Assembly: GCA_026388315.1 (NCBI GenBank)
Contig: JAPLKA010000034.1
Coordinates: 1-34,665, forward strand
Direction of reading: 5' to 3'
DNA length: 34,665 nt
Source of the DNA: Pseudomonadota bacterium
GTDB lineage: Bacteria; Desulfobacterota; Syntrophorhabdia; Syntrophorhabdales; Syntrophorhabdaceae
The number at the start of each line of letters is the position of its first letter. The stretch's first letter is position 1. Below the pieces are notes generated by a model, which had not been told where the DNA came from, did not search any database, and saw only the letters and a list, made by a program, of their open reading frames with translations. Positions 9,473 to 34,254 of this stretch are shown piece after piece. Position numbers and translations under genes: made by a program.

Positions 9473-10846
9473 ATGTCATATGATAAACCACTTTCTCTCT
9501 CATTGCAAAAGGAATTAGACCAGAGAAACCTCGTTTTAGATTCGGAGATTCATACCGCCTTGCAGGCGTTGAGGATAAAATCATTGCTCTGTCGATGCAA
9601 TATCATGAAGACCAAAGGCTACACAACTGTTGTCCTTCTGTATTGGCTCGTTCTGCTTCCGTTCATTATGAAACGGACTACTTTTCTCTGGACGGGAAAT
9701 ACCTTCCTTGATGCAAAGAAAGATACTTTTTATCGTTTCCTCAATAATGAATATTTCCATTGGCGTGCCTTCATCTACCGGTTAGTACTGAAAATGATTG
9801 CTTTAAGCGACGATGTTCCACTGAAGGAGAAGACCCTTATCCTTGATGATACCATCGAGAAAAAGACAGGAAAAGAAATGGAACTTGTCAGTTATCACTT
9901 CGACCATACAACACAGAGGAGCATCCTCGGCTACCAGTGTGTTCAACTGGGATACCACAACGGGAAACAGTTCTTCCCTCTCGATGCGGGATTCCATGTC
10001 TCTAAAAGCCGACCGAACACCAGAACGAAATCTATCGATAAACGGAGCACCGGTTGGAGAAGGAGAAAAGAAGCATTCCGGAAGAAGACCATCGTAGCCG
10101 TTGATATGCTCAAACATGCATGGAATCAGGGGATCGTTGCATCCTTTGTCCTTTTTGACAGCTGGTATGCCCATGATGTCCTTATTGCTGACATTCTGGA
10201 GATAGGATACGGTGTCATCTGCCGGTTGAAATCAAACAGGGTAAAATATTCCTATGAGGGCTGTCAGTATACCCTCAAACAACTATGGCAGGACGTGGCA
10301 AAGAAAAAGGCAAAAGGTATATATGGTTTTCCCTATAAAGGGGTCTGCCTGAAGGCAACATTACCAAAGTCGGGAGAGATATTACTCCTTTTTGTATCAG
10401 ACGGAAAGAAACAGTGGAATGCTTTTCTGTGTACTGATACGGAATTGGAACCATCAAAAATCCTCACCTATTATGCACGGAGATGGGCTATTGAACTCTT
10501 TTTTAAAGATGGAAAACAGATGCTCTATCTGGGTAAAGAACAGAGCGAAACCTTTGAAGCCGTTGTTGCCTCCTACAGTCTGGTGATGATCCGGTATCTT
10601 CTGCTTATTTTCATTCTCCGTAAATATCAACGGACTGTGTCACTGGGCCCGCTATTCAGGGAACTGGCAGAAACCCATCTTCAGCTTATTATGATGGAGA
10701 CCATGTGGGGCCATATCAAAGATATACTCATTGTGTCAAGCCACCTACTTTTGGGAGAAATAGAACCGGATCGCTTTTTACACTTCCTTGATATTGTTGA
10801 AGATGCTATACTGATGCAGATCCAGGGAGCAAGTGCGAAACTTTAG
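9473..10846 (+). CDS. IS4-family DDE transposase
   Basis: 457 residues. The catalytic pattern of IS4 enzymes is present: first Asp in LILDDTIEKK, second Asp in FVLFDSWYAHD, and the YREK signature Y-x2-R-x3-E-x6-K in YYARRWAIELFFKDGK, which carries the catalytic Glu. It catalyses cut-and-paste transposition using the flanking 17-base repeats. ATG follows AAGGAG with 7 bases. The stop TAG lies inside the right inverted repeat. The frame is full length and uninterrupted, so the enzyme is probably active. Confidence 0.93.
   Translation: MSYDKPLSLSLQKELDQRNLVLDSEIHTALQALRIKSLLCRCNIMKTKGYTTVVLLYWLVLLPFIMKRTTFLWTGNTFLDAKKDTFYRFLNNEYFHWRAFIYRLVLKMIALSDDVPLKEKTLILDDTIEKKTGKEMELVSYHFDHTTQRSILGYQCVQLGYHNGKQFFPLDAGFHVSKSRPNTRTKSIDKRSTGWRRRKEAFRKKTIVAVDMLKHAWNQGIVASFVLFDSWYAHDVLIADILEIGYGVICRLKSNRVKYSYEGCQYTLKQLWQDVAKKKAKGIYGFPYKGVCLKATLPKSGEILLLFVSDGKKQWNAFLCTDTELEPSKILTYYARRWAIELFFKDGKQMLYLGKEQSETFEAVVASYSLVMIRYLLLIFILRKYQRTVSLGPLFRELAETHLQLIMMETMWGHIKDILIVSSHLLLGEIEPDRFLHFLDIVEDAILMQIQGASAKL
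10830..10846 (-). repeat. right terminal inverted repeat of the IS4-family element
   Basis: CAAGTGCGAAACTTTAG pairs with the left end over 17 of 17 bases. It also encodes the last residues (A-K-L-stop) of the transposase. Confidence 0.93.
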
Positions 10847-14233: not shown

Positions 14234-14977
14234 CTATGTCAAGCCTGAATATATTTTTCTCATAGAATCTTCACCTCCTTTCAATATTATCTTATGGGCA
14301 TTATGGACTATCCTGTCGCATATGGCATCTGCAAGGGTAGGTTCTCCTATGATGTCATGCCATGTATCTATCGGGAACTGAGATGCAATGATGGTTGACC
14401 GCACGCCATGCCTGTCCTCCATGATTTCAAGGAAGCTTCTTCTTTCATCATCTGTGAAGGGATTTATCCCCCAGTCGTCGATGATAAGAAGTCTTATCCT
14501 CTGGAGCCTGGACAGGAATTTTACAAAGCTTCCGTCAGCTTTTGCTATTTTCAGGTCCTGAGCCAACCTTGGCAATCTTACATAAGTGGTGCGTATGCCC
14601 TGTCTGACAGCGCTGTTTCCCAGGGCACAGGCAATATAAGTTTTGCCTGATCCGGTAGGCCCGACGATTATGATATTCTGGTTGGAGCGTATCCATTCAT
14701 TTTGAGATAATTTAAGGATTACATCTTTTGATAATCCCCTCCTGGTTCTGAAGTCTATATCCTCAAAACAGGCATTGTGATGCCTTAAGTGGGCATAGGA
14801 AAGAAGGATTTTAAGCTGACGATTTCCTCTTGATAGTTTTTCTTTATCAACAAGAATACCCAGGCGCTCCTCAAAACTTAAGTCTTTGTATGCGTTGTTA
14901 TTCAATTGTTCCTGCAGTCCTTCCGCCATGCCTGATAACTTCATTGCAATGAGTTTTTCGATGGTCGCCTCAATCAT
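14234..14977 (-). CDS. istB: IS21 helper ATPase IstB
   Basis: 247 residues from ATG at 14975-14977, preceded by GGGAGG on the minus strand. It is a AAA+ ATPase with Walker A GPTGSGKTYIA, Walker B LLIIDDWGINPF and the N-terminal IstB helical segment (KLSGMAEGLQEQL). IstB clamps target DNA and delivers it to IstA. The start overlaps the istA stop by 8 bases, the usual translational coupling of this IS family. Length and motifs are complete. A longer start at 15001 is possible but has a weaker ribosome site. Confidence 0.93.
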   Translation of the reverse strand: MIEATIEKLIAMKLSGMAEGLQEQLNNNAYKDLSFEERLGILVDKEKLSRGNRQLKILLSYAHLRHHNACFEDIDFRTRRGLSKDVILKLSQNEWIRSNQNIIIVGPTGSGKTYIACALGNSAVRQGIRTTYVRLPRLAQDLKIAKADGSFVKFLSRLQRIRLLIIDDWGINPFTDDERRSFLEIMEDRHGVRSTIIASQFPIDTWHDIIGEPTLADAICDRIVHNAHKIILKGGEDSMRKIYSGLT

Positions 14978-16496
14978 GGGTTGCCTCCCGGTAGTACTCA
15001 TTGCCTCTTATGTTGTTATGAAGGGGGACAATCTTTTTGTTTTCAACATCTGTTGCTGAACCCTCCAACCCCATCTGAAGGAGGGACTTTACACTTTTGT
15101 AATTATACGCCTCTATTTCCAGCGCCCTTTTACATGCATTTTCTACCCGTTCTGGAGAATATGCCTTTGATAGTCTTATAATACCGAGACAGCTTCGAAA
15201 ACCTTGTTCAGGATGGGTTCTGTGTTCCATGATTTCTTCAAGGAGGGTTTTTGTGTTTGGCCCTATCTTCTGTCCCCACAGTTTTATCCTTGCAGGGGTC
15301 CATTCGAGGTATTGTCTGTGTTCCGCCGGCATATGAAGGTTCTCTGTAACAAATGCCCCCGGTTTATTCATTTTTATATGAGAAGCAACCCTTTTTCCTT
15401 TATGGTATATTTCTACAATGTTGCCGGTATGCATAATATCCAGAGTTTCTCCTATTAAGGTATAGGGAACACTGTAATATGTTTTTTCTACCTTTACATG
15501 ATAATCAATGTGTACTTTCGCCTTTGTCCATGAGGCAATAGCAAACCGCTCCGATGGAAGAGATTTTAAAGCAGGTTTCTCGATTTCAATAAAAAGATCG
15601 TAACGGGATTTGTTTATTACTGCCATCGGTCTTCTATTCAGTTTTTCGGTTTCTTCCAGTATGGCTTCATTCAGTTCTATAAGACTGAAAAAGGTTCTGT
15701 TTCGGAGTGCTGCAAGGATTCTTCTTTGTGCCTGAAGCACTGCATTTTCTACCTTGGCCTTGTCTTTTGGTTTTGCCACTCTTGTGGGGATGACAGCGAT
15801 ATTATAATGCTGCGCCATAGCAGCAAGGGTTTTGTTGATCTCCGGATCATAGAAGCATGCATGGGTAATACCGGCCTTAAGATTATCCGGGATCAGACAT
15901 TCGGAACATCCTCCATAAAACTCAAATGCTTTTATATTACATTTTATAAAGCTCTCGGTAGTCTGACCGGGTACGGCATGTGCAAATATATATGAGCTTG
16001 CCCCTAATACGGAGACAAATAGTTCAACCTCGATCATTTCTCCTGTTGTCGGATTCCGATAGTGAGGTTTATCCCCGGAGAAGTCGACGAACATCTTTTC
16101 TCCTGCCTTATGGGTGATGTGCATAACAGGGTCCGCCTTTTTCTTCCAGTCATGATACAGTTGGTAAAACTGGCTTTTTTCATACCCGTCGGGATTATCC
16201 CTTTTGTATTCCTCGTGAAGCAATTGAAGGGTTACACCTTTCTTCTTAAGTTCTCCAGCGATATACACAAAATCAGGCAGTACTTTTATTGATGTCTTTT
16301 CGGCCTTAGGCGATACGAGATCTGACAGGATGTCTTCGTCTATCTCGCAGATTTCTTTATAAGTAGCGCCGAGCTCCCTGAACTTCTCCACATAGGTTGA
16401 AGCTGTTGAAGTGGATATATTGCATGCCCTGGCGATGGGACGAATACCAAGATTGCATTCAAAAAGCAGCCGGGCAATTTCTTTCAGTTTTTTCAT
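14970..16496 (-). CDS. istA: IS21 transposase IstA
   Basis: 508 residues from ATG 16496, with GGGAGG about 8 bases before it; GTG 16523 with GGAGGG is an alternative adding 9 residues. An N-terminal helix-turn-helix (LGIRPIARACNISTSTASTY) is followed by a DDE catalytic core with Asp in KMFVDFSGDKPHY, Asp in CLIPDNLKAG and Glu in DKAKVENAVLQAQRRIL, then the beta-barrel region (DYHVKVEKTYYSVPYTL) and a C-terminal tail. It cuts and joins the element ends. The frame is intact. Confidence 0.93.
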   Translation of the reverse strand: MKKLKEIARLLFECNLGIRPIARACNISTSTASTYVEKFRELGATYKEICEIDEDILSDLVSPKAEKTSIKVLPDFVYIAGELKKKGVTLQLLHEEYKRDNPDGYEKSQFYQLYHDWKKKADPVMHITHKAGEKMFVDFSGDKPHYRNPTTGEMIEVELFVSVLGASSYIFAHAVPGQTTESFIKCNIKAFEFYGGCSECLIPDNLKAGITHACFYDPEINKTLAAMAQHYNIAVIPTRVAKPKDKAKVENAVLQAQRRILAALRNRTFFSLIELNEAILEETEKLNRRPMAVINKSRYDLFIEIEKPALKSLPSERFAIASWTKAKVHIDYHVKVEKTYYSVPYTLIGETLDIMHTGNIVEIYHKGKRVASHIKMNKPGAFVTENLHMPAEHRQYLEWTPARIKLWGQKIGPNTKTLLEEIMEHRTHPEQGFRSCLGIIRLSKAYSPERVENACKRALEIEAYNYKSVKSLLQMGLEGSATDVENKKIVPLHNNIRGNEYYREATHD

Positions 16497-16627
16497 TGAT
16501 GTCTTCCTCCCTTTCTTTTTCACTTATACACCCTCCGGTATTTTTTGAGGGCAGTGTATCATGTCAGGCAGGGAGAAGAATCATGATCTGTTTTACATAA
16601 ACAGATATTCCGGTAAAACACAAAAAG

Positions 16628-26681: not shown

Positions 26682-26999
26682 TTATCCAACAGCGTCCAGG
26701 CCTTTTTTCTGCACAAGTGACAGCAATTTAAGGGAAGGTCCCCGTGGGTGTTTTTCGCCTCTTTCCCATTGGCTTATCAGACCGACAGTTACGTTAAGAT
26801 AACTTGCAAAAACTGCCTGACTAACACCGGCTTTTTTTCTCAATTGGACAATTTCTTCAGGGGAAAGTTCTTCTACGGGTGTTAGGCATGAAGCGTCGAA
26901 GTCACGCATCGTCTTTGCATCTACCAATCCGATTCTATGGAGCCCTGCCGCCGTTTCGTGTGCTGCTGCCAGTGCATCAGTTCGATACTTCTTTTTCAT
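26682..26999 (-). CDS. HigA-like antitoxin / XRE-family regulator
   Basis: 105 residues. A flexible N-terminal part (MKKKYRTDALAAAHETAAGL) precedes an XRE helix-turn-helix: LSPEEIVQLRKKAGVSQAVF, ASYLNVTVGLISQWERGEKH. This is the form of antitoxins paired with RelE/HigB-type toxins, in which the N-terminus binds the toxin and the HTH represses the operon. The ATG overlaps the toxin stop (toxin ends at 26996), so the order is toxin first, as in higBA. Confidence 0.88.
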   Translation of the reverse strand: MKKKYRTDALAAAHETAAGLHRIGLVDAKTMRDFDASCLTPVEELSPEEIVQLRKKAGVSQAVFASYLNVTVGLISQWERGEKHPRGPSLKLLSLVQKKGLDAVG

Positions 27000-27364
27000 G
27001 GGTGTACCTCCTCTACTTCGCCGTCTTGCTGCGCTTTGGTAAAATCCTCATTGCTGAAACCTAAATAAATATGTGCCAATCTATGATAGACGTCCAGTTC
27101 TACCGGACTCAGATTAGACTTTGCATTTTTGGGAAATCCATATAAGAAGACCGATAGAGACTCGACACGATACGCAATAATTGTCCTGTAACCACCTCTC
27201 TTGCCCTCGCCAATACGGGCAATACGCTTCTTGATGAGTTCTGCCCCTAACTCTCCATCGGCCAATCCTCGCTCGATTTCACGTATCGCATTCATTAACA
27301 TCTCGTCATTAATATGCTCTTTCCGGGCAAAGCGTGCAAACCACTTGGTTTTGAATATCTGCAC
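26996..27364 (-). CDS. RelE/HigB-type toxin (mRNA interferase-like)
   Basis: 122 residues from GTG 27364, with GGAGG 4-9 bases upstream. FKTKWFARFARKEHINDEML, AIREIERGLADGELGAELIK, IARIGEGKRGGYRTIIAYR and VFLYGFPKNAKSNLSPVEL match the RelE/HigB-like toxin family with basic residues in the active groove (KRGGYR). Such toxins cut mRNA on the ribosome. The antitoxin gene overlaps its stop by 4 bases. A 15-base palindrome overlaps the promoter (27385-27399), fitting autoregulation. Confidence 0.87.
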   Translation of the reverse strand: MQIFKTKWFARFARKEHINDEMLMNAIREIERGLADGELGAELIKKRIARIGEGKRGGYRTIIAYRVESLSVFLYGFPKNAKSNLSPVELDVYHRLAHIYLGFSNEDFTKAQQDGEVEEVHP

Positions 27365-27399: not shown

Positions 27400-27596
27400 C
27401 TCGGTGCTATAAAACAAAAGTTTTATTTTTGTCATAAACCTTCCTGAACTGCTACGATATTAATCAATTGGTTTATGCTTTCAAGCGGTAACAATTATTC
27501 GACTGTAAGGTAACCTTTCGCGATATTGTGGATATCTCAGGACTTGGGTGTTATGTTATATAGGCTATTGTTTACCACGTAATGGAGGAATGGTTT

Positions 27597-27917
27597 ATGA
27601 ATATTGACTGTTATTTGTCGCATGGATGCGGTTCTGAAAAAGCCCTTCGTGGAAACATCACCCGGGCGCTGGCTGTTGAAAAGGTTGAAGCTGAGGTTAA
27701 TTTCAACGTTGTTGATGATGAAAAGGCCATAGCTCTTGGACTATCTGGGTCACCCTCGGTATTTGTCAATGGAAAGGAGATACAACCACAAGGAACGGTC
27801 GGGTTCTCTTGAAGGATGTTTAGCGATGAGTCTGGAAGACTCACCAATGCCCCCTCAGTCGAGACAATCCGAACTGCAATAAGAGAACACAAACATCTCC
27901 GAGAGGAGACATCATGA
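27597..27917 (+). CDS. probable selenoprotein: thioredoxin-like protein with in-frame TGA (Sec72)
   Basis: Start ATG 27597 with GGAGG at 27584-27588 (8-base spacing). The first part MNIDCYLSHGCGSEKALRGN, then LGLSGSPSVFVNGKEIQP, has the 'GSPxVxVNG' strand-turn of small thioredoxin-like proteins. At 27810 the frame meets TGA inside GFS-[TGA]-RMFSDESGRL and then stays open for 34 more codons (TNAPSVETIRTAIREHK) to TGA at 27915-27917. From memory, relatives carry a conserved 'GLxCRxY...P...IRxAL', so the TGA replaces the conserved Cys. A hairpin with a GG-containing loop stands 22 bases after the TGA. The final stop overlaps the next gene's ATG (ATGA). Predicted product: 106 residues with selenocysteine 72. 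The alternative is a Cys-to-stop mutation. If read as stop, a 71-residue product results. Confidence 0.7.
27827..27843 (+). promoter_or_regulatory. candidate bacterial SECIS element
   Basis: TGAGTC (27827-27832), loop TGGAA, GACTCA (27838-27843): six perfect pairs with G at the second loop position. The loop begins 20 bases after the TGA at 27810-27812, within the spacing and loop rules for SelB-binding bacterial SECIS elements. Confidence 0.6.
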
Positions 27918-28585
27918 ACGGTCAGGGTGAAGAAAAAGAAGTATTGAACGGTCAGCAGAGTCATTGGAAAAAGGTGTACACCGAGAATGCCGATATGTTT
28001 GGTAAGGAGCCGAGTTGTCCTGCCCGCAGGGCCGCCGAGCTTTTCGGGAAGGGGAACGTGAAAAGGATTCTGGAACTTGGAAGCGGCCAGGGACGGGACA
28101 CCCTATTTTTTGCCCGGCACGGTTTTAAGGTTTACGCACTCGACTATAGTGAGGAAGGTCTGGATGCAATGCAGAAAAAGGCTGATGCAATCGGAGCCTC
28201 TGGTTCTCTGACGACTATTTACCACGATGTGCGCCAACGCCTCCCCTTCGACGATGATTTTTTTGACGGGTGTTACTCGCATATGCTCTACTGCATGGCT
28301 CTGACAACCCCCGAGCTTGAGTTTCTGTCACAGGAAGTACGTCGCATCCTCAAACCAGGCGCCCTCAACATTTACACCGTTCGCCATACAGCAGACCCCC
28401 ATTACCGGACAGGTATAGATCGCGGGGACAACATGTGGGAAATAGGAGGCGGGTTTGTCGTCCACTTCTTCAGCAGGGAGAAGGTAGTTCATCTTGCAAA
28501 AGACTACGAGATCATAGGGGTGGAGGAGTTCGAGGAAACCGATCTTCCGAAGAAACTCTTTCTCATTACGCTCAAGAAAAACTAA
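27914..28585 (+). CDS. class I SAM-dependent methyltransferase
   Basis: 223 residues. GAGAGGAG precedes the ATG, which overlaps the final TGA of the upstream gene (ATGA), so translation is coupled and would benefit from read-through. Methyltransferase motif I is ILELGSGQGRDTLFFARHG; motif II GFKVYALDYSEEGLDAMQ ends strand beta-2 with an acidic residue for the SAM ribose; motif IV is FFDGCYSHMLYCMALT; post-motif is EVRRILKPGALNIYTVRH. The N-terminal 'HWKKVYTENADMFGKEPS' is typical of a group often found with thiol-redox or metalloid-related genes. The methyl acceptor is unknown. Confidence 0.87.
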   Translation: MNGQGEEKEVLNGQQSHWKKVYTENADMFGKEPSCPARRAAELFGKGNVKRILELGSGQGRDTLFFARHGFKVYALDYSEEGLDAMQKKADAIGASGSLTTIYHDVRQRLPFDDDFFDGCYSHMLYCMALTTPELEFLSQEVRRILKPGALNIYTVRHTADPHYRTGIDRGDNMWEIGGGFVVHFFSREKVVHLAKDYEIIGVEEFEETDLPKKLFLITLKKN

Positions 28586-28930: not shown

Positions 28931-30196
28931 TTACGCAGCCTTTTTTATCACCTTCCTTGTCGGTAATCCATAATCCGCCATGTACTCACTGCCATCCCTC
29001 ACAACAGCATATATGATCCGGAGAAGCTTCCTGGCTATGGCCACAAGTGCCATCATCCTCTTCATTCCCCTGCCTGTAAGGGTTGCGTAATATTCGCACA
29101 TGATGCCATTCTTTCTTATAGTTTGGATAGACGCATAGTAGAGGATCTTACGGAGAAGGCTTCTCCCCCTCTTCGATATTCTCCTCTCTCCTCTCCTCTT
29201 CCCGGAGCTTATTTCATAGAGATCAAGGCCGGCAAGCTTCATGATTTCTGACTGGGTGCCAAATTTCATGAAGTCTCCTACTTCTCCGATGATACCAGCA
29301 ACGGAAACCGTCCCCAGGCCTTTTATCGACAACAGCCTTGCACTGTACGGTATACGTAAGAGAATGGCTACCATCTCGGCCTCTATCTCTGCAATGAAAC
29401 CGTCGATCATCTCCAACTGCATGAGGATATGCCTGATATCGAGGACAAGGCCTGATATCCCTTCCTTTATCCCGACAGTGTTCTTTGCATGTTTGATCAG
29501 TGCTTCGGCGTCCTTTACCCCGAACTTGCCGTAACTCTTTTTCCGCATCTCTTCGCCGAGGGTCTCTATGCTTAACTTGCCTATAGTGTCCGGTGTGGTG
29601 TATTTTTTCAGTACATGGACGGCGGTCTTGACCTTTATATCCTTCATTACTGTTTTAAATTCGGGGAAGATGAGGAAGACCAACTGCTGGAGCTGGTTGA
29701 ATAAGGCAGTGCGTTCTCCTATGTGCCGCTCCCGCGCATTGTTGAGTCTTCTCAGATAGGCCGTATCTCCTTCCGGAACAACAACGGTTAAAGCATGTCC
29801 TAATCTGATAATATCGGCAATCACCCGGGGATCCTTGTCATCGGTCTTTAATGGAGAGTTGTCATTTACCTCTTTCATCCTCTTTGTATGCATGGGATTC
29901 ACCTGGACGATCTTTACAGGTTTGCTCATCATGTAATGCAACAAAGGCTCTGCGTAGGGACCAGTTGATTCGTATCCCACAATCACTTCGTTACAGCAAA
30001 ACCTCTTTTTGCTTATGGTTATCATATCCCAGAATTTATCGAGGCCTTCCCTGGTGTTACCGAACTTGAAGGACTTTGTGTCCCTGCCATCCGCTGTTAT
30101 ACAGTATCCTGTGTTGCTTGCCATGCCGATGTCTACCGTAGCCATCAATGTGTCTTCCCTTACCGTCCTTATCCTTTTCGACCTCAGTCCTTTCAT
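28931..30196 (-). CDS. IS110-family transposase (DEDD, Transposase_20)
   Basis: 421 residues from ATG 30196. The RuvC-like DEDD core shows Asp in ATVDIGMASNTGY, Glu in VGYESTGPYAEP and two Asp in LKTDDKDPRVIADI. The C-terminal Transposase_20 domain reads LLSIKGLGTVSVAGIIGEVG, MKLAGLDLYEISSGKRRGER, SKRGRSLLRKILYYASIQ, with the serine of the second active site in this part. The enzyme is guided by a structured RNA in characterised members. AAGGAGG lies 10 bases upstream, inside a hairpin (30205-30236). The frame is intact. Confidence 0.92.
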   Translation of the reverse strand: MKGLRSKRIRTVREDTLMATVDIGMASNTGYCITADGRDTKSFKFGNTREGLDKFWDMITISKKRFCCNEVIVGYESTGPYAEPLLHYMMSKPVKIVQVNPMHTKRMKEVNDNSPLKTDDKDPRVIADIIRLGHALTVVVPEGDTAYLRRLNNARERHIGERTALFNQLQQLVFLIFPEFKTVMKDIKVKTAVHVLKKYTTPDTIGKLSIETLGEEMRKKSYGKFGVKDAEALIKHAKNTVGIKEGISGLVLDIRHILMQLEMIDGFIAEIEAEMVAILLRIPYSARLLSIKGLGTVSVAGIIGEVGDFMKFGTQSEIMKLAGLDLYEISSGKRRGERRISKRGRSLLRKILYYASIQTIRKNGIMCEYYATLTGRGMKRMMALVAIARKLLRIIYAVVRDGSEYMADYGLPTRKVIKKAA

Positions 30197-30497: not shown

Positions 30498-32186
30498 ATG
30501 CGTAGGAAGATCGTTCTTTCAGTCGGGGTTTTTATTTTCTTCGCATCCTTTGCCCTTGCTGAAAAAGGTTCACTCAAGATAGGGGCATTCCCTGCACCCC
30601 CGCAACTCTCCGCCTCCGTTAAATTCGTCGAACCTTCCGGCAACAATATCCTCGATGCAGGTGAAACAGGCAAGCTCATCGTTACTGTGCAAAATACCGG
30701 AAAAGGAGATGCCTTTGATGTTAAGGGGCAACTCAAAACAAACAAGCAGATAGCAGGTCTTTCTTTTAACCGGGAGGTCGCAATAGGCACCATATTGAGC
30801 GGCAAAACTGCCTTTGTAGAAATTCCCGTGCAGGCAAGCGAGGACATTCCCACTGATTCTGTTACTTTTGATATTGAAGTCAAAGAGGCAAACGGTTTCG
30901 ATGCAGCCCCTCTGAAACTTTCATTCAAAACCAAGGCCTTTGAACCCCCGAAGCTTGTTGTTGCTGATATCGGCATTAATGACCAGAACAAGAACTCCCG
31001 TGTAGAGCCTATGGAGATCGTAGAGCTTATTGCCAGAATTCAGAACATGGGCTATGGTGATGCGCGGGGCGTATCCGTTGATATTCAGCCGGGACAGAAC
31101 GTCTTCATTGCCGGTGATGGGAAAACCCGCTTTGATCTGGGCAGCATCCAGGCAGGGAAATTCAAGGATGTGACCTTCATGTTCTATACCAACAACCGTA
31201 TAAAAGACGGCGAGAAGATTCCCCTCTCCATCCAGGTAAATGAAGCAAGACCGAGGTTCAGCACACTTCTGCCCCTCACCCTTGTAATGAATGCTCCGCA
31301 GAAAAGTGTTGAGGAGATCGTGGTAAAAGGGGAAGACACAGAGAAGAAGCCCGATATTACTCTGGCAGGAGGCCTAAGCGTTGATGTAGACATGCATATC
31401 CCCGAAGGGGAGAAGGCAGGTAAATTTGATATTGCTGTCATTATCGGGAACAAGAACTACAAAAACATCCCGAATGTGGAATATGCGGACAGGGATGCGG
31501 TGATCATGAAAGAATACCTTATCAGGGCCTTCGGGTATGATCCTCAAAACATTCTCTATGAGGAGAACGCAGGTTTTGCAAAGTTCAATGAACTCTTCGG
31601 GTCAGAAAGGGAATACAAAGGCAGGCTGTACAAATTTGTAAGAAATGGCGTTTCAAAGGTCTTCATCTACTATGCAGGTCACGGCGCCCCTGACCTTGAG
31701 TCGCAGGAAGCATACTTTGTGCCTGTTGATGCAAATCCTGAGTACCTTAAATCGAGCGGCTACAGCCTCCAGACATTCTATACAAACCTCTCCAAAATCC
31801 CTGCAAAGAAGATGACCGTCATCCTCGATACCTGCTTTTCGGGAAACTCAGAAAAAGGGATGCTCTTCAAAAACATTAGTCCCGCCATGGTACGTGTCAA
31901 AAAGGAATACCAGGGACCTGCTAATACAACTCTCATCACCAGTGGGGCCGTTGATCAGGTGTCTGCATGGTATCCCGAAAAGAGACATTCTCTCTTTACC
32001 TACTATTTTCTGAAGGGGATTCAGGGCGAAGCAGATGTAAATAAGGATAAAAAGATTACCGTGGGAGAAATGAAGGTATACCTCGCCGAGCATGTTCCCT
32101 ACATGGCGCAGCGCCTGAAAGGAACAGAGCAGCAGCCTGTGGTAATGGGGAATGATAGCGATGTAATGGTGGTGCTGAAGAAGTAA
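30498..32186 (+). CDS. exported CARDB plus caspase-like (C14) protein
   Basis: 562 residues. ATG follows ACGGGGG. A signal peptide (IVLSVGVFIFFASFALA) is followed by two CARDB/NEAT-like Ig domains (about 25-145: NILDAGETGKLIVTVQNTGK; about 155-275: KNSRVEPMEIVELIARIQNM). From about 315 a caspase p20 domain follows: FDIAVIIGNKNYKNIPNVEY, catalytic His395 in YYAGHGAPDL and Cys446 in LDTCFSGNSE. Both catalytic residues are present, so a metacaspase/paracaspase-type protease with activity outside the cytoplasm is expected. An EF-hand-like DVNKDKKITVGEM near 510-525 may bind calcium. The PIN-domain gene follows after 30 bases. Confidence 0.85.
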   Translation: MRRKIVLSVGVFIFFASFALAEKGSLKIGAFPAPPQLSASVKFVEPSGNNILDAGETGKLIVTVQNTGKGDAFDVKGQLKTNKQIAGLSFNREVAIGTILSGKTAFVEIPVQASEDIPTDSVTFDIEVKEANGFDAAPLKLSFKTKAFEPPKLVVADIGINDQNKNSRVEPMEIVELIARIQNMGYGDARGVSVDIQPGQNVFIAGDGKTRFDLGSIQAGKFKDVTFMFYTNNRIKDGEKIPLSIQVNEARPRFSTLLPLTLVMNAPQKSVEEIVVKGEDTEKKPDITLAGGLSVDVDMHIPEGEKAGKFDIAVIIGNKNYKNIPNVEYADRDAVIMKEYLIRAFGYDPQNILYEENAGFAKFNELFGSEREYKGRLYKFVRNGVSKVFIYYAGHGAPDLESQEAYFVPVDANPEYLKSSGYSLQTFYTNLSKIPAKKMTVILDTCFSGNSEKGMLFKNISPAMVRVKKEYQGPANTTLITSGAVDQVSAWYPEKRHSLFTYYFLKGIQGEADVNKDKKITVGEMKVYLAEHVPYMAQRLKGTEQQPVVMGNDSDVMVVLKK

Positions 32187-32890: not shown

Positions 32891-33917
32891 ATGATAAAAA
32901 TACCATTCCTCTCAACACGCACTTTATGTTTTTTAATGTTATATGCACTTGTCTTTATTGCCTCCACCTGTTTTGCTGCTGAGGTGAAAAACACCATCTC
33001 CCGGCAGGAAGGTAACAGGGTCGTATGGGAATTTGAAGTGGTCTCCGATACACAGGAAGAAGCGGACCTGACACTCACCATCACCATTGACGGCAAAACA
33101 TATGAGTCAAAAGATTTACATCTTGAAGGAGACTTCACCAAAATCAAACCAGGAAAAGGCAAGAAGATCTATTGGAATGTGCTGCAGGACTTCCCGAGGG
33201 GCATACATGGTAATCTGGACTGGGAGCTTGTGGCCGGCGGCAAGGCATTCACCGACCCGACTACCGGTATTGAATTGGTCTTCGTAAAAGGCGGCTGCTT
33301 TGATATGGGCGATACCTTTGGCGATGGCGAAGCAGATGAAAAACCCGTCCATAATGTCTGTGTCTCTGATTTCTTCCTCGGTAAGTATGAAGTTACCCAG
33401 GGTCAGTGGAAGGCCATCATGGGCAGTAATCCATCATACTTTAATAACTGCGGCGATACATGCCCTGTAGAGATGGTCTCTTGGAACGATACCCAGGAAT
33501 TCATTCAAAAGCTCAACAGCAGAACTGGCAAATCCTATCGTCTTCCCACAGAGGCAGAATGGGAATATGCAGCCCGTAGTGGCGGTAAGAAAGAGAAATA
33601 TGCAGGCACAAGCTCCAATTCAAACCTTGGAAGCTATGCCCCACCCCGTAGGCCGGAAACGACCCAACTCTCTGGGTCTCTATGACATGACCGGCAATGT
33701 TTGGGAATGGGTGTCTGACCGGTATGACAAGGGGTATTATTCCGGCAGCCCCAGAGACAATCCCGGAGGACCTTCTACCGGTAGCACCCGGGTGCTTCGT
33801 GGCGGCAGTTGGGGCCTCAATCCGTGGTTCATCCGTGCTTCGATCCGTGACAAGATCACCCTTCCGTCGTTCAGGCCCAACAACTTCGGGTTTCGGCTTG
33901 CCCTTTCCGGACGGTGA
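32891..33917 (+). pseudogene. exported formylglycine-generating-enzyme-like (SUMF1/FGE) protein, frameshifted
   Basis: The first frame (32891-33685) has a signal peptide (LCFLMLYALVFIASTCFA), a ~90-residue beta domain (RVVWEFEVVSDTQEEADLTL) and the FGE domain start: VKGGCFDMGDTFGDG, FFLGKYEVTQGQWKAIMG, SYRLPTEAEWEYAARSGG. After LGSYA it runs into a wrong tail. The +1 frame continues as HPVGRKRPNSLGLYDMTGNV, WEWVSDRYDKGYYSG, STRVLRGGSWGLNPWFIRAS and FGFRLALSGR to 33917. One extra C in the run at 33639-33642 explains the break. Full domain about 340 residues. The copper-binding Cys pair of true FGE is absent, so it is probably a binding or non-sulfatase member. Confidence 0.85.
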
Positions 33918-34254
33918 TTTTCTGAGTTCTGGATTTCTGCTGGTGTTTGCAAAAAGAGAAGAGGGGGTCAACCTTGACAAATGACAAAGAGAACAGCACA
34001 AACCATTGCCCAACAAAGCAATACGACTTGCCCCACTCTCGGCTGGTTTTATTGTGATATTGTCAAAAGTTTCATGAAAAGAAGTATGTGAGATATGAAA
34101 ACAGGAACATCAAGTATGTTTAGAGGAATTTATAAGAAGTCGGACGCAATGCGATGTGCCAAACATGCACATAAACTGAGTTTTATGTCCGCAACGAGAT
34201 AGAGAAACAGCAGGTTTTTTTATTGTTCTTTGACAATCGAAGAGAAGTTACCCT
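33918..34254. other. intergenic stretch, no gene seen
   Basis: About 340 bases. It contains a TTGACA at 34229-34234 close to the downstream transposase end and no supported gene. The end of the right-hand insertion sequence probably lies near 34230-34250, but no terminal repeat can be shown because the other end is outside the window. Confidence 0.4.

Follow-up and report, generated by a model that had tools for sequence, protein, structure and literature searches.

The NCBI family NF049942, "DF family (seleno)protein", corresponds to the "hypothetical protein DF" of the deep-Sep study (PMC12013277). That 2025 paper reported one organism with a Sec-containing DF protein and no TGA homologues elsewhere (PMC12013277). 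SaoT (NF040730) is the thioredoxin-like selenoprotein of the SAO organometallic system and has the motif UxxC (PMC13188914). Here we describe a putative selenoprotein gene in the window, the whole 34,665-nucleotide stretch of DNA that was analyzed (contig C34; the assembly has 3.8 Mb, with 100% completeness and 3.7% contamination). Its product would share with SaoT a small size, a thioredoxin-like character, a Sec residue and a metal-related context, but it carries U-R in place of the UxxC of SaoT (PMC13188914). The SaoT profile did not match the protein even at E 10. The preliminary description of this locus had suggested a relation to SaoT; the family that the protein does match is NF049942.

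A candidate selenoprotein gene related to the DF family

The reading frame begins at ATG 27597, reaches a TGA at 27810-27812 that forms codon 72, and continues for 34 more sense codons. Its terminal TGA (27915-27917) overlaps the start codon of the downstream gene, an ATG at 27914 (ATGA). The frame, the TGA, the continuation and the overlap had been described beforehand, together with a strong ribosome site, and we confirmed every position in the sequence. An antisense open reading frame at 27611-27964 was taken to be a mechanical by-product of the coding strand. The features of the locus are as follows.

27584-27589, + strand: ribosome binding site GGAGGA of the selenoprotein gene (sequence)
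27597-27917, + strand: predicted selenoprotein gene, 106 amino acids with Sec at residue 72; thioredoxin fold; on a divergent, all-Sec branch of the DF family
27627-27629, + strand: codon for Cys11, nearly invariant, at the usual thioredoxin active-site position (loop before helix 1)
27810-27812, + strand: UGA codon, almost certainly read as selenocysteine (comparison of TGA and Cys codons, two genome searches)
27827-27843, + strand: SECIS-like hairpin whose apical loop, 20-21 nt past the UGA, contains GG (synonymous recoding, covariation, folding)
27903-27908, + strand: the methyltransferase's own ribosome binding site, GAGGAG (sequence)
27914-28585, + strand: class I SAM methyltransferase, 223 amino acids, like the N-terminal two-thirds of MduS (profile match)

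The window protein aligns with NF049942 from residue 4 to 94 (profile positions 2-96; 48.9 bits, E 5.1e-13), and all 28 homologues that we gathered match this profile. It therefore resembles the DF family in its full-length match, in a shared Sec/Cys column and in its fold class. However, its score falls below the curated cut-off of 70 bits, and it belongs to a separate, all-Sec branch. In a tree of 42 rows, whose bootstrap had not settled and which contains some long branches, that branch holds 24 rows, all Sec, with support of 100/97. Six Sec forms group with most of the Cys forms in the other branch. Placing the Sec/Cys label on the tree needed two changes, compared to 10.6 in shuffles. By these sequence comparisons, the window protein appears to be a divergent Sec sister branch of the DF family rather than a member in the NCBI sense. 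The only close relative on the branch that was scored individually, L137, also falls below the NF049942 cut-off. Because both proteins score under it, annotation based on NF049942 may truncate genes of this kind at the UGA.

The predicted structure adopts a thioredoxin fold with a mean pLDDT of 81, and confidence is lower around Sec72 (block means 69-77). Foldseek matched it to thioredoxins with a probability of 1.00, at an E-value of only 2.5e-3. Structural Z scores reached 8.9, and KaiB-like chains were among the top rows. In the model, Sec72 sits in a short strand following the cis-Pro strand. Invariant or almost invariant positions in the alignment of the homologues are Cys11, a GSP motif that probably contains the cis-proline, Sec/Cys72, Arg73 and Gly80. 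Cys11 is likely to be the redox or metal-binding partner of Sec72.

Decoding of UGA at codon 72

We searched 395 genomes of the host's phylum and found a homologue in 29. At the column of residue 72, 21 alignable sequences (window included) have TGA and eight have TGC or TGT. A second search, which scanned named genomes using eight close sequences, added 12 distinct, previously unseen Sec forms. It also brought in two Cys forms from actinobacteria; of these, L152 alone spans the full protein. Over both searches, TGA occurs in 33 sequences, the window included, and TGC or TGT in nine alignable relatives. TGA at residue 72 is kept across independent assemblies. Homologues do not end before this residue; protein conservation extends past the Sec/Cys column, and synonymous change per site exceeds non-synonymous change on both sides of it (raw non-synonymous/synonymous ratio 0.17-0.26 upstream of the TGA and 0.22-0.35 downstream).

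A six-pair hairpin with a GG loop had been proposed downstream of the UGA, and its sequence and pairing are as described: TGAGTC (27827-27832) pairs with GACTCA (27838-27843) around the loop TGGAA (27833-27837). U27833 and A27837 could add a seventh pair, leaving GGA as a triloop. The bSECIS model that we used places a G early in the apical loop and the element 16-37 nt after the UGA, with a limit of -7.5 kcal/mol (PMC13188914). The 23-nt hairpin of the window fits this model, and its -7.7 kcal/mol just reaches the limit. Its folding energy has a z of -2.2, while that of a 60-nt stretch is by itself unremarkable (z 0.18). Rfam yielded no family within the window.

We assessed how readily such a hairpin arises by chance by resampling synonymous codons while keeping the amino acids. 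For the window alone, a SECIS-like hairpin as good appeared in 10 of 1000 recodings. The Fisher combined P over 21 Sec relatives, which are not fully independent, was 1.7e-16; with one sequence per clade, it was 1.4e-7. Cys forms lack the hairpin (combined P = 0.07 under the same recoding). Twenty of the 21 Sec sequences have a hairpin whose loop opens with G-G or G-U, located 16-21 nt after the UGA; in the exception, L026, a good hairpin is absent from the usual place. Covariation was counted in 26 sequences that share one register, with L022, L032-L034, L040 and L043 excluded because their stem lies in another register. Stem cells were paired in 94.2% of cases, with 18 double-change cells, and none of 500 shuffles reached this level. 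When the partner strand was slid by one to three bases, pairing fell to 24-45%. These data indicate that the GG-loop hairpin after the UGA exceeds chance expectation and covaries among Sec forms.

The host genome encodes selA (597.5 bits), selB (371.5 bits), selD (366 bits) and selC, the last as a tRNA-Sec of 72.6 bits with anticodon UCA. Its selD is itself a selenoprotein gene, reading GGGUASKIG across an in-frame TGA (L048/L129, G000:C55), and the best formate dehydrogenase match in the host has one in-frame TGA. Since these two genes carry in-frame TGA codons, the host very probably decodes UGA as Sec at other genes too.

The preliminary description took the UGA at 27810 to be read as Sec, and this reading gains support from the Cys residues of homologues, the SECIS-like element, the sel genes and the TGA codons of independent assemblies. 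Based on this comparative evidence, decoding as Sec is close to certain. If the TGA were instead a true stop, the gene would make a 71-residue protein and the remainder would be relic sequence. Such a stop is what the standard table gives, and the list of open reading frames has none crossing the TGA. However, the 34 downstream codons are conserved as protein with a purifying pattern, the same place holds TGA in 33 sequences and TGC or TGT in nine more, and the hairpin covaries, all of which make a true stop highly improbable. With Sec decoding, the DF family grows from a single reported Sec member to at least 33 Sec sequences, and Sec forms are now known in Desulfobacterota-type bacteria and in Nitrospirota. 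Independent TGA homologues and a covarying SECIS-like element, previously missing for DF, are now supplied.

The downstream methyltransferase

The gene at 27914-28585 covers positions 5-215 of 338 in the MduS profile (NF045649; 268.6 bits). It ends at profile position 215 and does not reach the MduS cut-off of 380 bits. The methyltransferase domain is common to both, but MduS, the double selenoprotein methyltransferase, has a Sec-bearing C-terminal domain that the window methyltransferase lacks. Instead, the gene just upstream provides an unrelated selenoprotein partner with a thioredoxin fold. We considered the MduS C-terminal domain as a possible DF domain and rejected it; when the alignment was inspected by eye, it displayed CxxC/CxxU-type AhpD-like features and no GSPS or Sec-Arg motif. 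MduS proteins above the cut-off, with two TGA codons, are found in eight genomes of the phylum.

The selenoprotein and the methyltransferase are probably made from one transcript. In both congeners that have the selenoprotein gene, the methyltransferase is fused or adjacent. In one of them (G286; L019/L081, G286:C243) the two are fused in frame as a protein of 359 residues, because the junction differs by one base in length from that of the window. The pair occurs in only two genomes of the family. One Sec gene, in G250, is followed by another, unrelated methyltransferase.

Relatives of the methyltransferase also occur apart from the selenoprotein. In the host, a chromate transporter gene is directly followed by a second MduS-like methyltransferase (G000:C69, L114), a pairing that recurs in G286:C217. 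Stand-alone MduS-like methyltransferases adjoin a cation efflux gene in G224 and G097, and on a Streptomyces plasmid a relative lies beside ArsR, ACR3 and ArsC genes. Another MduS-like methyltransferase is beside a VKOR-like gene (Pfam VKOR 22.7 bits, under the cut-off of 27.5).

Gene neighbourhoods and proposed function

Several relatives of the selenoprotein lie next to mercury or arsenic genes. Three Sec forms from Nitrospirota (L136, L137 and L138) have a MerA above cut-off upstream, which in L137 is preceded by a MerR-family gene for which Zn and Hg regulators give equal best scores. The Sec gene of L141 follows an ArsP-like permease and precedes thioredoxin, ArsR and ACR3 genes; L141 was the locus covered by the profile scan, and L143 and L146 resemble it by look. 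In G020 (L027/L089, Sec), ArsM is downstream. Among Cys forms, that of G179 directly follows a MerT-MerP-like fusion, a layout also visible in two others, and that of Pseudonocardia adjoins a gene annotated as alkylmercury lyase (a MerB-DF pair). In Streptomyces xanthophaeus, a Cys-type DF domain is fused N-terminal to MerB (DF 3-95 and MerB 194-317 of 323 residues; L154:4001-4972, plasmid NZ_CP108628.1). Streptomyces sp. NBC_00582 has a gene of about this length that may be the same MerB fusion.

Several Sec relatives have no adjoining metal gene and lie beside alaS, tpi, CbiO and others. Because the gene is also found next to such unrelated genes, the metal link is only an apparent tendency and not a rule. 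The best MerA match in the host genome scores 145 bits, below the cut-off of 454, so the substrate here need not be mercury. The mer and ars neighbourhoods and the MerB fusion give the DF family a testable role.

We propose that the hairpin at 27827-27843 would recruit SelB and Sec-tRNA(UCA), so that Sec is inserted at UGA 27810. As a thiol-selenol pair, Cys11 and Sec72 may then bind a soft metal(loid) or chalcogen substrate, or reduce it. This substrate would be handed to a partner, which in relatives may be MerA, MerT-MerP, MerB or the products of arsenic genes and in the window would be the SAM methyltransferase. We put the probability of this explanation as a whole, including both Sec decoding and metal(loid) or chalcogen handling through Cys11/Sec72 with the methyltransferase as partner, at roughly 60%.

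Decoding as Sec would also suit a protein that serves thiol-disulfide redox chemistry in general and has no role specific to metals, such as an electron donor or a VKOR-linked disulfide carrier. The thioredoxin fold and the lack of MerA in the host are consistent with such a role, as are two Sec relatives from the same bacterial family (G245 and G177, the latter being the copy scanned) that have a VKOR/thioredoxin-like membrane gene just upstream, and the VKOR-like gene beside an MduS-like methyltransferase. However, only one conserved Cys lies near the usual CxxC site, and co-location with mer and ars genes recurs in distant phyla, along with the MerB fusion. A general redox role is thus a credible minority reading, clearly less probable than metal(loid) or chalcogen handling. 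A different relationship between the two genes was put forward in the preliminary description, in which the methyltransferase depends on read-through of the UGA; selenium status would then gate its synthesis. The ATGA overlap and the in-frame fusion in G286 fit this idea. The methyltransferase in the window, however, has a strong ribosome site of its own, which weakens dependence on read-through; a single frame is found only in G286, and even in that fusion an in-frame ATG is retained at the corresponding position. We regard such gating as unlikely.

More broadly, and only tentatively, the DF superfamily could be a selenol/thiol carrier that passes Hg(II), As or Se species to a detoxifying enzyme, here the MduS-type methyltransferase. 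If true, this genus would have a two-gene, selenium-dependent metal(loid) methylation system, fused in one species.

The window contains several other features. Divergent from the selenoprotein gene, a RelE-type toxin (RelE Pfam match at 26996-27364) and an HTH antitoxin-like gene occupy 26682-27364 on the minus strand. An IS110-family transposase (28931-30196), also on the minus strand, comes just after the methyltransferase, and more transposase-like open reading frames were seen by eye at 9473-10846 and 14234-16523. A secreted caspase-like peptidase with metacaspase-type motifs, likewise identified by eye, lies at 30498-32186. It is followed at 32891-33984 by a formylglycine-generating-enzyme-like gene that seems to be broken, likely by a frameshift, into two frames (32891-33685 and 33567-33917).
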